A DNA stretch of 64,000 nucleotides from Microcoleus sp. FACHB-68 (GTDB lineage Bacteria; Cyanobacteriota; Cyanobacteriia; Cyanobacteriales; Oscillatoriaceae). The DNA lies in NCBI RefSeq assembly GCF_014695715.1, contig NZ_JACJOT010000015.1:62001-126000 (forward strand), written 5' to 3'. Made by a program: the position numbers and the translations under genes. A model generated the notes under the pieces. That model was not told the DNA's origin and ran no database searches. It saw only the letters and a list, made by a program, of their open reading frames with translations. This document shows positions 9,981-63,660 of this stretch, one piece after another (positions within the stretch are counted from its first letter, which is position 1; the number at the start of each line of letters is the position of its first letter).

Positions 9981-10547
9981 CTAAACGTTAACTACAGATA
10001 GAGCCTCAAGAATATAGGCTCTTCCCGCTATTGATTTAATAACTTCTTTCGTCAATTGTTCCAGTTGTTTACTAATTAAACTCCTCAACTCATCTAAAGT
10101 CTTTGGTAATTCCCATCTCAAACCTCGCTTAAGATACTGCCACACTTGTTCTATTGGGTTTGATTCCGGTGTGTGCGGCGGCTGAAACATTAAAATAATG
10201 TTATTCGGTATTTTCAGTTTTTTCGCTTTATGAAACCTGACATTATCTAATTGAATAATCAATACGCTATCCGGAAATCTTTGGGCTACCAATTCTAAAA
10301 ATATCTGAAAGCATTGACTATTCAAATGGGTAAACTCATAAAAGAAATGCTCTCCGGTTTCGGGTTCAACCACCCCATATATATATGTTCCTTGGAATTT
10401 CCATTGCACTTTTCCTATGGGTTTTACCCCCGGGCAAGTAATTCTTCTGCCACTTATTGTTTTTAGTCCTATTCGGGTTTCATCTTGACAGAAAAATCTG
10501 ATCTTTTTCCCTAACCCCATGATGGTTACTGCTATTACGCTCAGCAT
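9981..10547 (-). CDS. IS630 transposase, DDE catalytic part (ORF B)
   Basis: C-terminal catalytic half of the IS630/Tc1-mariner-type transposase. First Asp is in CQDETRIGLK, second Asp in IQLDNVRFHKAKKL, and the Glu in PPHTPESNPIEQVWQYLK; all three acidic residues are present. The real reading probably enters from ORF A by a -1 shift. In that frame the sequence is open upstream of the ATG at 10547 and adds FLENLA. Translation from the ATG alone would give a catalytic part without the DNA-binding domain. Confidence 0.9.
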   Translation of the reverse strand: MLSVIAVTIMGLGKKIRFFCQDETRIGLKTISGRRITCPGVKPIGKVQWKFQGTYIYGVVEPETGEHFFYEFTHLNSQCFQIFLELVAQRFPDSVLIIQLDNVRFHKAKKLKIPNNIILMFQPPHTPESNPIEQVWQYLKRGLRWELPKTLDELRSLISKQLEQLTKEVIKSIAGRAYILEALSVVNV

Positions 10548-10558
10548 GGCTAGGTTTT

Positions 10559-11062
10559 CTAAAAAGTTTTTTTAAAATCTTTTAATCTTTCCTCTGACTG
10601 TTCTGTGCTTTTTGGTCTGGCTATTTTTGGGGCGGCTTTGAGTCGATAATATACTAATTGATGGACTGTTTTATAATTGGCTTCTATCCCTAGCTTCTCT
10701 CTCAACCATGAGCAAATTTCTCCATAACTGTCGAATCCCCTTGGCGACTGGAGTTTTTTCTGTAGTTCTTTTTCTGCCCACGCTGGGATTTTTCTAGGTC
10801 TTCCTGTGCTGACTTTTTTCGCTAAAAGTTCAATGAGTCCTCCTTGACGGTATTTGGTTAACCAATCTTGGACTGTGACTCGATTTCTGCCAATCAGTTC
10901 TGCGGCTTCTTTGACCGTTTTAGCTTTTTTTGTTTTGAGTAGGTACAACACTTGTAATCTTTCTTTTCCTGATGCGGTTTTTTCTTGGCTCAGTCGTTTT
11001 TTGAGTTCGCTTTCACTTTCTGTGATTTCTAGCTGATAAACTCCTGCCATTTTTTTCCTCAA
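10559..11062 (-). CDS. IS630 transposase, helix-turn-helix part (ORF A)
   Basis: N-terminal DNA-binding half. KTVKEAAELIGRNRVTVQDW is a helix-turn-helix, and GRPRKIPAWAEKELQK followed by the winged-helix-like GFDSYGEICSWLREKLGI completes the region. The frame ends in LKDFKKTF just after an A7-C-T5 run (10562-10574 on the + strand). This run is a plausible -1 slippage site joining it to ORF B. Start MRKKMAG at 11062; the second Met four codons in is an alternative. Confidence 0.88.
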   Translation of the reverse strand: MRKKMAGVYQLEITESESELKKRLSQEKTASGKERLQVLYLLKTKKAKTVKEAAELIGRNRVTVQDWLTKYRQGGLIELLAKKVSTGRPRKIPAWAEKELQKKLQSPRGFDSYGEICSWLREKLGIEANYKTVHQLVYYRLKAAPKIARPKSTEQSEERLKDFKKTF

Positions 11063-20376: not shown

Positions 20377-20600
20377 GTGACATCCTCCTGCGCTAAATCT
20401 TGCGATTATAGGGCAGGCTTCCAAACCTCACGATTTGACATTCCTAGTTCTTCTCTTACGAGGTTTCGCCTCTGACCTAGACTGACTTTCATCAATCCCC
20501 GGCAGACAGACTGCATAGGCGTTTTCAATTCCGCAGAGTCCCTGCGTACTAATGAGTTCTAGACCGCGCAACCTGATTACTTCTGATGCTGCGTGATCAC
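20377..20600 (-). ncRNA. Candidate TnpB guide RNA (omega/reRNA) region
   Basis: In characterised TnpB systems the guide RNA scaffold is made from the 3' end of tnpB plus the right end, and the guide is the flanking DNA just beyond. By analogy the scaffold here would run through the last part of tnpB to about 20377. The guide would be the bases immediately below that position, reading TCTGTTAGGTAGACC. This is positional inference only; no structure was computed. Confidence 0.35.
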
Positions 20601-21699
20601 GAGCTGTTTCGTACGCACAACCATCACACTTATGAACCCGTTTGGAAAGTTCTTTCTTTCCTGTATGCGTTCCGCACTTAGGACAGGTTTGAGAGGTTCC
20701 ATCCGGATTGACACGGGCAAAGTAGATTTGATGTTTCTTCGCTACCCATTCCAGCAAGTTGAGGAACTGACCGACAGCGGCATCTAAGGTATGTTTTCTC
20801 AACATCCCTCTCGACATCGCTTTCAAGTTCAAGTCCTCAACAAACACCATCCCAATACTTTCTTTGGTACACAGATGGTTAGCCAGTTTGAACTGCCAAT
20901 CCTTCCGAATACTAGCGATGTGGTTGTGGAATCTGGCAACCTTGAGTCGAGCCTTCTCACGATTTTTAGAACCTGTCTTCGTTCTGGCATACTTGCGTTG
21001 CAGTAATTGGAGCTTGCCGTACAAGGATGTCAGGAATCGAGGTCTAGCGATAAACTCTCTATCCGAGGTAGTTAAAAACTTCTCCAATCCCAAATCGATA
21101 CCCAGTGCATCTCCATGAGGTTGGGCGTCTGGTATCGACACCTCAGACTCTATCGTGACAACGACTTCCCATCTATCCGCTTTCCTCAAGACCCTCGCTT
21201 GCTTGACCACAAACCCTTCTGGGATGGGTCGGTGCAAGTTGATGGGCATTCTCCCGACTTTGGGAAGACTGATTTGCCATCCAGTAATCGGGTTGGTTTT
21301 GAATTGCGGAAACAGCATGGACTTCATTTGTCCAAACTTCTTGAAGCGAGGAAAGCCAAATCCCCTCTTTTGGAAGTAATTCCAAGCGTCGTGCAATCTA
21401 CGGATAGTAGTTTGCAGAACTTGAGAAGGTGCTTCTCCCAATCCAGGAAATTCTTTCTTTGCTTTGGGAAGTGCGTTTTGTTGAGCGTAATAGGTAGGGA
21501 AGAGTTTGTCGGGTGGAATAATGTATTCACGTTCCAGCGAACAATAGTCCCAGCTACATTTACGCGAATTCACCCAATCTTTGATTTCCCGCAAAGCGTA
21601 GTTGTACACCTTGCGAGATATTTCCAGCCAATGCAGCATTGTCTGCTCTTGGCTAGCGTCTGGATAAATTCGGTAGCAGTCGTTCATGATGAAAGTCAT
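20428..21699 (-). CDS. tnpB: TnpB RNA-guided endonuclease-type protein
   Basis: 423 aa, full length for the family. The RuvC-like triad is complete: Asp202 in GIDLGLEKF, Glu288 in VFVEDLNLKAM and Asp368 in TARDHAASE. A zinc ribbon is formed by Cys339, Cys342, Cys358 and Cys361 (CPKCG and CDGC). The C-terminal tail is basic (SEAKPRKRRTRN). Two starts are possible: Met1 at 21699 or the Met at 21687 that begins MNDCYRIYPDASQ, where homology usually starts. The intact triad suggests retained nuclease function and not a decayed relic. Confidence 0.92.
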   Translation of the reverse strand: MTFIMNDCYRIYPDASQEQTMLHWLEISRKVYNYALREIKDWVNSRKCSWDYCSLEREYIIPPDKLFPTYYAQQNALPKAKKEFPGLGEAPSQVLQTTIRRLHDAWNYFQKRGFGFPRFKKFGQMKSMLFPQFKTNPITGWQISLPKVGRMPINLHRPIPEGFVVKQARVLRKADRWEVVVTIESEVSIPDAQPHGDALGIDLGLEKFLTTSDREFIARPRFLTSLYGKLQLLQRKYARTKTGSKNREKARLKVARFHNHIASIRKDWQFKLANHLCTKESIGMVFVEDLNLKAMSRGMLRKHTLDAAVGQFLNLLEWVAKKHQIYFARVNPDGTSQTCPKCGTHTGKKELSKRVHKCDGCAYETARDHAASEVIRLRGLELISTQGLCGIENAYAVCLPGIDESQSRSEAKPRKRRTRNVKS

Positions 21700-60136: not shown

Positions 60137-61768
60137 ATGACCCTGCCAACACAAACCCAACACCCCTCAGAGGCGCTCTCTTCAGGAGAGACGGAAGAAG
60201 AAGCGTTTGTAAATCGCCAAATGCTCGTAATTCTGGACTTTGGTTCTCAATATTCGGAATTAATCGCTCGCCGCATTCGTGAGACGCAAGTTTATTCGGA
60301 AGTTTTATCTTACCGCACCACCGCTGAACAGTTGCGCCGGTTGAATCCTAAAGGAATTATTCTTTCTGGGGGACCGAGTTCCGTTTATGATGCCGGTGCT
60401 CCCCATTGTGACCCAGAAATTTGGAACTTGGGCGTGCCGGTTCTCGGTGTCTGCTACGGAATGCAATTAATGGTGCAGCAGTTAGGCGGCGAAGTCGAAC
60501 GTGCCAAACGAGCTGAATATGGAAAAGCCTCCTTATTAATAGACGATCCCACAGATTTACTAACCAATGTGGACGATGGCACCACCATGTGGATGAGTCA
60601 TGGAGATTCTGTGACAAAACTGCCAGATGGGTTTAAAGTGCTCGCTCACACCGGCAATACATCCTGTGCCGCTGTTGCTCACCACGATAAAAAGTTTTAC
60701 GGCGTGCAGTTCCATCCAGAGGTGGTACATTCCATAGGCGGTTTGGCTTTAATTCGCAACTTTGTTTACCACATCTGCGAGTGCGAACCGACTTGGACAA
60801 CAGAAGCGTTTGTTGAAGAAGCCATTCGAGAAATTCAGGCAAAAGTCGGCGATAAACGAGTGCTGCTGGCGCTATCGGGAGGCGTTGATTCATCCACCCT
60901 GGCTTTCTTGCTGCACCGGGCAATTGGAGATCAGCTCACTTGTATGTTCATCGATCAAGGCTTTATGCGTAAGTATGAGCCAGAACGGTTGGTGAAGCTG
61001 TTCAAAGAGCAATTTCACATTGATGTAGAGTATGTGAATGCCCGCGAGCGTTTCCTTTCACAAATTGCCGGTGTCACCGATCCGGAGAAAAAACGCAAGA
61101 TAATTGGGCACGAATTTATTCAGGTATTTGAAGAAGAGTCTAAACGCCTCGGCCCTTTTGATTATCTGGCACAAGGCACTCTTTATCCAGATGTGATTGA
61201 GTCGGCTGATACGAACGTTGATCCCAAAACCGGCGAACGGGTGGCGGTGAAAATTAAGAGTCATCACAATGTCGGCGGTTTGCCAAAAGATTTGCGCTTT
61301 AAATTAGTTGAACCGCTGCGGAAACTATTTAAGGATGAAGTGCGTAAAGTTGGGCGATCTATTGGCTTACCCGAAGAAATTGTACGCCGGCATCCTTTCC
61401 CCGGCCCAGGTTTGGCTATTCGCATTTTGGGTGAAGTGACGGCAGAACGGTTAAATATTTTGCGAGATGCCGATTACGTTGTCCGCCAAGAAATTAATCA
61501 GCGGGGATTGTATCACGAATTCTGGCAGGCTTTTGCGGTGCTGTTACCGATTCGCAGTGTCGGTGTTATGGGTGATCAGCGCACCTATGCTTACCCGATT
61601 GTTTTGCGATTAATTTCTAGTGAAGATGGCATGACGGCTGACTGGTCCCGTGTGCCTTACGATCTACTGGAAACGCTTTCTAACCGAATTGTTAATGAGG
61701 TTAAAGGCGTGAACCGCGTGGTTTACGATATTACTTCTAAGCCGCCTGGAACCATTGAATGGGAGTAG
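60137..61768 (+). CDS. guaA: GMP synthase (glutamine-hydrolysing)
   Basis: Amidates XMP to GMP; 543 aa. N-terminal class I glutamine amidotransferase domain: nucleophile Cys in GVCYGMQLM, His/Glu in [10 protein letters not shown]. Middle ATP-PPase domain with the PP-loop [20 protein letters not shown]-terminal dimerisation domain with [19 protein letters not shown] and [18 protein letters not shown]. The first 25 residues are an extension seen in cyanobacterial forms. It follows cbiD by 153 bp on the same strand. Confidence 0.96.
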
Positions 61769-62157
61769 ATTGCCAATAGCAACCGGCTTTTATTTTAAAA
61801 ATTGATTGCTCTAGGATGTCCGATGGGTACAGGGTTAGCTTTGCTCAACCCAACCTCCCCTTGGGTCGCCTTCCTTTCTAAAATTGGGATGACGAGAGGA
61901 ATTAAAGCAGTCAGAGATGTTTCTCTCCCGCTTCTAATCTCCCCGTCTCCCTTTCGATCTACGTCGGGATTTAAACACGTAAGTCTTGCTTGAGAGAAAT
62001 GGCTGCCGGCACTGCTGAGCCGGTTAAAGTCGGATTAATGATTAGGAAGTTTGCTCTTAACCTTCCTATTAACTTTTGTGGAAAACTCCCCAAAAATCTG
62101 TGGAAAACTCCCCCTTTCTGTGGAAAACTTAGGGAAATTTTCCTCAACTGCCGGCAA
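61769..62157. other. Gap with DnaA-box-like repeats
   Basis: 389 bp between guaA and the CDF gene (both end here, convergent). Apart from the repeat cluster at 62077-62127 there is no coding signal; an open frame at 61990 has no recognisable content. Confidence 0.5.
62077..62127. repeat. Three tandem TGTGGAAAA (DnaA-box-like) repeats
   Basis: TGTGGAAAA occurs at 62077-62085, 62099-62107 and 62119-62127. The first two are part of an identical TGTGGAAAACTCCCC. On the minus strand each reads TTTTCCACA, which fits the DnaA-box consensus TTWTNCACA. Spacing is 22 and 20 bp, about two helical turns. Function is unproven. Confidence 0.6.
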
Positions 62158-63066
62158 CTAATTTGGCTCAGATTCAGATTTATAGGTGATATTTTCAGAC
62201 TGGTAAGCCGGCGGCTCGATATGAATCATAACTCGCACCGGGTTGTAACGTTCTTGCAGGCGAGTTTCGACTTCTTCTGTGATTTGGTGAGCGGTTTCCA
62301 CATCCTCGGCATTGACAATCATGTGCATTTCAATAAACACCTGCCGGCCTACTATGCCACGAGAAGCAATTTCATGACAATTAATCACTCCTGGTACTTG
62401 CATGACAATGGCATGAATGGCTTCAGGGGCAATTGCCATTTCATCAACCAGCCAGGGGAGATTATCTTTAATGACTTCCCAGCCACTGCGAAATACTAAC
62501 AGCGCGACGGGAAACGCCAGCAGAATATCGAGCCACATTACCCCCTGCCAGACACCGATTAAACCGGCAATAACAAGAATTGTCACCCAAACATCGCTCA
62601 TGGTGTGTTTGGCGTCTGCAATCAAAATACTGCTGCCAATGCGCTGCCCGACATTGCGCTCATAATAGGTGACAAAAATATTGATGCCCAGCACAAGTAA
62701 CAGCAACCACAGTTCTGAGGGAGAAATGTTCACCGGCTTGCCACCGTTGAGTAGCCGATCAACTGCCCCTTGGAGAATTTCAAAGCAGGCAATGCCTAAA
62801 AACGCGGCAATTCCCAGTGCTCCCACCCCGTCAAATTTCTGATGTCCGTAAGGGTGATCCCGATCTGGTGTGGGAGAGGCTAATTGGTTGGTCACCAGTC
62901 CTAATATATTGTTGGCGCTGTCGGTGACGCTATGCAAAGCATCGGCTAGTAAGCTAAGAGAGCCGGTGAGGAATCCCACCCCTGCTTTGATCGTCATCAC
63001 CACCAAATTTAGCAGCAGGGTAATGATTAAAACTTTGCGAATTTCGGCGCGGTTATCTTCTAACAT
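62158..63066 (-). CDS. Cation diffusion facilitator (CDF) transporter
   Basis: 302-aa divalent-metal exporter (Zn2+, Co2+, Fe2+ or Mn2+ type). Six membrane spans. The metal site residues are His/Asp in DALHSVTDSANNILG (TM2) and His/Asp in DAKHTMSDVWVTI (TM5). Between them is the conserved loop PDRDHPYGHQKFDGVGAL. The C-terminal cytosolic domain (HQITEEVETRLQERYNPVRV) is a ferredoxin-like dimerisation module. The H-x3-D pairs favour Zn or Fe over Mn, but metal choice is not certain. Convergent with guaA. Confidence 0.92.
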   Translation of the reverse strand: MLEDNRAEIRKVLIITLLLNLVVMTIKAGVGFLTGSLSLLADALHSVTDSANNILGLVTNQLASPTPDRDHPYGHQKFDGVGALGIAAFLGIACFEILQGAVDRLLNGGKPVNISPSELWLLLLVLGINIFVTYYERNVGQRIGSSILIADAKHTMSDVWVTILVIAGLIGVWQGVMWLDILLAFPVALLVFRSGWEVIKDNLPWLVDEMAIAPEAIHAIVMQVPGVINCHEIASRGIVGRQVFIEMHMIVNAEDVETAHQITEEVETRLQERYNPVRVMIHIEPPAYQSENITYKSESEPN

Positions 63067-63303: not shown

Positions 63304-63660
63304 ATGTCTGTTTCCCAACTAAAATTGAATCTCGTTGAAGGTTCTGTCTCCTTTAGCTTTAGCCCCCAAGCGGCGCGAGAGTTGCAAGGGGCACTGGCAG
63401 AATTAATGCTTAAACTCAAGGCTGTAGCCACTAAGACAGCCGTGGGGGGTGGCGGCAAACCTAGCCCTCAGAAACCGATGGAATATCAGCACGCCGGCGA
63501 GGTGTTTTTAGAAATTTTCTGCAACCCGAATATTTGGCCCAGTCCGTTTGCGGCGAAAGTTTTAATTACGCTGCGCGATGAGCGCATTCGCTTGACGACT
63601 GAAGCTGAACTGACTCGCACCCTTGAGGATGTTAACCAGTTTCTGGAGCAAGTGGGTTAA
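63304..63660 (+). CDS. Conserved-looking small protein, unknown
   Basis: 118 aa, not recognised. N-terminal SQLKLNLVEGSVSFSFSPQA and ARELQGALAELMLKLKAVA suggest an amphipathic helix. A Gly/Lys-rich linker (GGGGKPSPQKP) leads to a C-terminal alpha/beta half with EVFLEIFCNPNIWPSPFAAK and TTEAELTRTLEDVNQFLEQV. Soluble, no signal. ATG at 63304 follows TAGCCC. Same strand and orientation as the partial gene downstream, 147 bp away. Confidence 0.7.
   Translation: MSVSQLKLNLVEGSVSFSFSPQAARELQGALAELMLKLKAVATKTAVGGGGKPSPQKPMEYQHAGEVFLEIFCNPNIWPSPFAAKVLITLRDERIRLTTEAELTRTLEDVNQFLEQVG

Follow-up and report, generated by a model that had tools for sequence, protein, structure and literature searches.

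Three exact copies of a DnaA box, facing the same way and about two helical turns apart, lie in the gap between guaA and a gene for a CDF cation efflux protein in Microcoleus sp. FACHB-68. The arrangement recurs in other cyanobacteria, and box pairs of this kind are nearly absent from genomes without dnaA. A titration or regulatory site is the best class of explanation for the array. We think on balance that it is a control site lying away from the origin of replication, conserved and, to judge from its letters and their evolution, very probably bound by DnaA.

The array lies in a window of 64 kb (C15:62001-126000), the whole stretch of DNA analysed here, from a 6.5-Mb genome in 19 contigs. 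An initial annotation of this window had described three evenly spaced repeats between guaA and the CDF gene and had taken the repeated 9-mer to be a DnaA box. Both statements stand. The three copies are where it placed them (Table 1), and TTTTCCACA is the DnaA box reported for cyanobacteria (PMC4674748). The near absence of pairs from genomes lacking dnaA, and the constancy of the boxes against their changing spacers, support the same identification.

RESULTS

The array and its surroundings

On the forward strand, TGTGGAAAA (the complement of TTTTCCACA) occurs three times in the gap, and the window holds no further copy. The three boxes share one orientation, with start-to-start distances of 22 and then 20 bp. 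guaA and the CDF gene are convergent, and the array falls past the stop codons of both; no replication gene stands beside it. The 118-aa orphan gene, which often travels with the array, encodes a protein conserved in cyanobacteria, with 486 relatives found. Elsewhere in the window, ORFs at 9981-11062 and 20428-21699 resemble, by eye, a split transposase and a TnpB-like protein.

Table 1. Features of the array and its neighbourhood (positions within the window)
Feature	Position	Strand	Remarks
guaA (GMP synthase)	60137..61768	+	Pfam GATase, GMP_synt_C
Inverted repeat TAGGAAG...CTTCCTA	62043..62068	.	imperfect; adjoins array
AAAGTTAA	62069..62076	-	directly after box 3
DnaA box 3	62077..62085	-	exact TTTTCCACA
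DnaA box 2	62099..62107	-	exact TTTTCCACA
DnaA box 1	62119..62127	-	exact TTTTCCACA
TTTTCCTCA	62138..62146	+	one-mismatch box, orientation opposite to triplet
CDF cation efflux gene	62158..63066	-	Pfam Cation_efflux, ZT_dimer
118-aa orphan gene	63304..63660	+	no Pfam family

Several smaller features surround the boxes. Letters identical or close to AAAGTTAA follow box 3 in several lineages, though not universally, as read from the flanks; a similar stretch is also present where the triplet sits elsewhere (L098, L113, L114). The inverted repeat and TTTTCCTCA are both unchanged in the three congeneric genomes compared, and the former is a possible 3' end structure of guaA or the CDF gene. The gap had been described as having no other function, which is roughly right: it has no Rfam match, and promoter-like and terminator-like sites are no commoner there than in shuffled sequence, so that we rejected a promoter or terminator as its identity. 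An RNA element was likewise rejected, there being no Rfam match and only slightly better folding than in shuffles, on the minus strand (z -2.0, 4 of 200).

Chance expectation and the map of boxes

How readily would such an array arise by chance? Three or more single boxes would not stand out in 64 kb, since they appear in 9 of 100 dinucleotide shuffles. The spacing is another matter: a same-strand triplet at the array's pitch appeared in none of 100 shuffles of the window, and with 128 boxes in 6,526,090 bases the whole genome should contain about 3e-7 of them by chance. The case against chance had earlier been made from the helical spacing together with identical flanks. The spacing bears it out; the flanks do not, as ACTCCCC is common to only two of the three boxes and the third is followed by ACTTAGG. 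Nor is a shared flank the signal, because across relatives the spacers differ and the boxes do not.

Genome-wide, the exact box is 2.6-fold commoner than the reversed 9-mer (128 against 50 copies), and only three places in the 6.5 Mb have two boxes 8-38 bp apart. The densest, with six exact boxes within 190 bp, is the dnaA-dnaN gap on another contig (C1:390568-390755). The second, on C10, lies upstream of a flavin amine-oxidoreductase gene (Pfam Amino_oxidase), which we take to encode protoporphyrinogen oxidase (PPOX). The third is the guaA/CDF array.

This map bears on the suggestion in the initial annotation that the array might be a replication origin. Its proposed check, a search for dnaA or dnaN near the array, found neither; both genes, confirmed by Pfam, flank the origin-like cluster on C1, where the boxes run in both directions and the GC skew turns locally. 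At the array we found no skew turn within its own contig. With a denser cluster between dnaA and dnaN and a skew turn there but not here, we conclude that the array is not the origin: the features expected of oriC (the densest cluster, adjacency to dnaA or dnaN, a skew turn) are found at C1:390568-390755 and not at the array. The same annotation had allowed for a species-wide short tandem repeat (STRR), a kind of element dispersed in many copies with common spacer sequence. We rejected a tandem-repeat family of this kind, because outside oriC the genome has a single such array, while the arrays are phylogenetically widespread and their spacers diverge between lineages.

Conservation of the boxes

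Of 60 relatives, 52 carry two boxes 8-38 bp from each other; the reversed control gave none. From 32 genomes we took 34 triplet loci (L082-L115). In 21 of them the triplet has as its neighbour guaA, the CDF or 118-aa gene, or more than one of these; among the other 13, four are near the genes of the PPOX site (L091, L097, L103, L110) and nine are elsewhere. No single gene always adjoins it. In several genomes (for example G039, G010 and G040) guaA is elsewhere and the triplet is still beside the CDF or 118-aa gene. At L089:3925-7106 the array lies between the 118-aa gene and what we read from its sequence as a purL-like gene, another purine gene; this may be coincidence.

The pitch is narrowly kept. 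Among 65 distinct triplets, defined by exact same-strand boxes, the two spacings were 21/21 bp in 21, 20/21 in 20, 20/22 in 11 and 22/21 in 6, with other combinations in 7. Their spacers carry little information except at the bases beside the boxes. All three boxes are invariant across 36 aligned guaA-site arrays, partly by construction, since exact same-strand boxes define the triplets and these arrays were chosen for them. In the three congeneric genomes, all 27 box positions are unchanged, and divergence is seen on the guaA side of the gap.

A further sample was chosen by the 118-aa protein and not by its boxes. We took the best 80 of the 486 relatives of the 118-aa protein; the alignment that picked them was built from array-bearing genomes, so the sample leans towards these. 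A triplet containing no more than one mismatch overall was present at 21 of the 80 loci, always upstream of the anchor gene and in constant orientation, and the reversed control was found at none. When a sequence model built from the 36 arrays was run on these loci, 21 matches scored at least 46 bits and none of the rest exceeded 12.6; the model was confined to them because it would also match the arrays at the origin and the PPOX site. Presence is likewise all-or-none at 46 CDF-adjacent loci counted by hand, L172 and L227 at the least being truncated where their contigs end: the 3' flank of the CDF gene holds two or three exact boxes in 19, none in 27 and exactly one in 0.

Flanking ORFs were called mechanically at 39 loci, and at L087 a convergent guaA is masked by an ORF that is probably spurious. 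They are convergent in 21 of the 39 and divergent in 3, two of these probably duplicates. L153/L101 and L180/L089 look duplicated, their contigs being of equal length; without the duplicates there are 21 convergent, 13 tandem, 2 divergent and 1 undetermined.

A phylum-wide scan of 386 genomes gave exact triplets in 38, as against one match for the reversed control. Nine genomes of other orders were examined, and in four of these (G067, G081, G087, G173) the triplet follows guaA, with a CDF gene facing it in two of the four. Barring horizontal transfer, the guaA-site arrangement therefore seems older than the divergence of several cyanobacterial orders. Further exact triplets in other orders, at L315, L312 and L322 (G087, G320, G330), have none of twelve marker genes nearby.

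A second conserved box pair or triplet outside the origin is found at L038:7789-7818 (G000:C10), the PPOX site, and in many relatives; among other orders it is present in G081 and G230. Beyond their Pfam hits, we take its neighbours to be a PPOX-like gene, a cryptochrome-like gene, ispE and a response regulator.

Box pairs and the presence of dnaA

Among 292 genomes of the order with a completeness of 95% or more, 204 have a box pair at a pitch of 19-23 bp and 248 have dnaA. Pairs occur in 202 of the 248 genomes with dnaA and in 2 of the 44 without (Fisher 1.4e-23, uncorrected for relatedness). The cross-tabulation joins two tables by hand, with 24 negatives unlisted, and agrees with the tallies of 204 and 248. 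Of the two exceptions, G028 is a draft with its boxes beside dnaN, and G054 of the same genus has dnaA; in G047 the spacers are identical, as in a plain tandem repeat. The 44 dnaA-negative genomes are spread over ten families, apparently a wider scatter than dnaA absence has in print.

Because origins count as pairs in this table, we made an origin-free recount among the 60 relatives. Pairs away from dnaA were present in 44 of 49 genomes with dnaA against 2 of 11 without (6.2e-6). This count, made by hand, treats a cluster on a contig other than that of dnaA as non-origin unless its neighbours indicated otherwise, and it drops G036, G023 and G025, where the spacing of the pairs exceeds 23 bp. 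In 30 named genomes, dnaA is absent from two, Planktothrix rubescens PCC7821 (L200) and KTt_bin-1839 (L195), absence here meaning no match at E 1e-40. Both keep the CDF gene next to the 118-aa gene and have no box pair anywhere. One of the 28 named genomes with dnaA, Nostoc carneum, is also pairless.

Forty-six of the 248 dnaA-bearing genomes have no pair, and among the Nostocales examined those with pairs have them adjoining dnaA; possession of dnaA is thus not enough to keep the site, and a dnaA-bearing cell can dispense with it. These findings fit a report that Nostoc PCC 7120 replicates without DnaA (PMC7198777).

DISCUSSION

Consensus boxes clustered away from oriC, beyond chance expectation and conserved, characterize a general kind of locus, the extra-origin DnaA-box cluster, and by its sequence the array is a member of that kind. 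It has the layout of neither of the two Escherichia coli systems: datA, where hydrolysis of DnaA-bound ATP is promoted, and the DARS sites, which reactivate DnaA by prompting it to release ADP. Like datA, it is a small non-coding group of DnaA boxes off oriC that is conserved in relatives (PMC4585315). The same source gives datA five boxes together with an IHF site, whereas the array has three co-oriented boxes at a 20-22 bp pitch; with three exact boxes and one one-mismatch box in the gap, we rejected datA as its architecture. The three-box core in a non-coding stretch recalls DARS1 and DARS2 (PMC4585315). Boxes I and II of DARS are opposed in the layout given in PMC8682772, and since all three boxes of the array face the same way, membership of DARS was rejected too. 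The distances of datA and DARS from oriC are conserved in E. coli (PMC5010248), unlike that between the array and dnaA, which in the three nearly closed genomes measured by hand is about 0.48 Mb (G006), 2.9 Mb (G039) and 1.4 Mb (G014). Bacillus subtilis also has intergenic groups of boxes outside its origin, bound there by DnaA (PMC4447404, PMC7198777). Those regions are tied to transcription of specific genes, whereas the genes flanking the array mostly point at it. The dnaA-dnaN origin of the same genome shares the 9-mer and, in part, the pitch (21 and 23 bp there), and differs in having boxes in both directions, between dnaA and dnaN, and a skew turn. Our literature search, mostly without subscription papers, found no description of the array, which is weak evidence of absence, nor any report of cyanobacterial sites resembling datA or DARS.

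What might the array do? DnaA very probably binds it in the cell, to judge from its letters and their evolution. Three DnaA molecules would bind the three same-facing boxes, and because these are about two helical turns apart, the bound molecules would be aligned on one face of the DNA, stackable in one direction. A structured complex is favoured since three of 128 boxes are few for passive titration. A promoter role is disfavoured because the flanking ORFs are mostly convergent and the array persists where guaA or the CDF gene is elsewhere. We lean towards an effect on the control of replication. The platform would most likely hold or inactivate ATP-DnaA, would itself be duplicated by the passing replication fork, as datA is in E. 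coli, and would help to restrain initiation at the dnaA-dnaN origin or set its timing. More tentatively, we propose an action like that of datA rather than an activating one, going by box orientation: boxes that all face one way favour head-to-tail stacking, and those of DARS are opposed (PMC8682772).

Other explanations were also weighed. The guaA/CDF/118-aa neighbourhood is old, DnaA controls nucleotide-synthesis genes in E. coli (PMC11317965), and at L089 and L093 the array is just upstream of the 118-aa gene, all of which would suit a DnaA that regulates transcription of guaA, the CDF gene or the 118-aa gene and so couples purine or metal balance to replication. This is nonetheless unlikely, given an array that lies here beyond the stop codons of both neighbours, has no constant neighbour gene and is flanked by divergent ORFs in only 3 of 39 loci, two of them probably one record. 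We think it improbable that the boxes are a passive sink, simply adding to DnaA titration with no special architecture. E. coli does titrate DnaA on many boxes (PMC12371093), and the excess of the 9-mer over its reversed form (128 against 50, 2.6-fold) is in keeping with such a role; yet three of 128 boxes are a small share, and nothing about a sink calls for a 20-22 bp pitch, a single orientation or all-or-none presence.

Equally doubtful is a site for something other than DnaA, be it another protein, an RNA 3' end element or a short repeat family. A conserved inverted repeat does adjoin the array, and the minus-strand RNA folds with z -2.0 (4 of 200 shuffles). The boxes themselves, however, are direct repeats, single-copy and without an Rfam match; their absence is linked with that of dnaA, and their letters are those reported for cyanobacterial origins (PMC4674748). 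A second replication origin is very improbable. The clustering of DnaA boxes is what speaks for it, against the denser two-direction cluster and skew turn at dnaA-dnaN, the lack of both a skew turn and an adjoining replication gene at the array, and the coexistence of array and dnaA-dnaN cluster in this and other genomes.

A bolder proposal is plausible but short of an even chance: that the array is an ancient cyanobacterial replication-control locus and, with the PPOX site, one of two extra-origin DnaA platforms, lost whenever a lineage stopped depending on DnaA. Were this true, the platforms would be a genomic marker of DnaA-dependent replication, and cyanobacteria would have a counterpart of datA and DARS with an architecture of its own. 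To the question why DnaA is required in some cyanobacteria and not in others, a conserved DnaA-box site missing wherever dnaA is missing would contribute a second sign of DnaA dependence legible in genome sequences, and it would offer a concrete target for learning how polyploid cyanobacteria control initiation.
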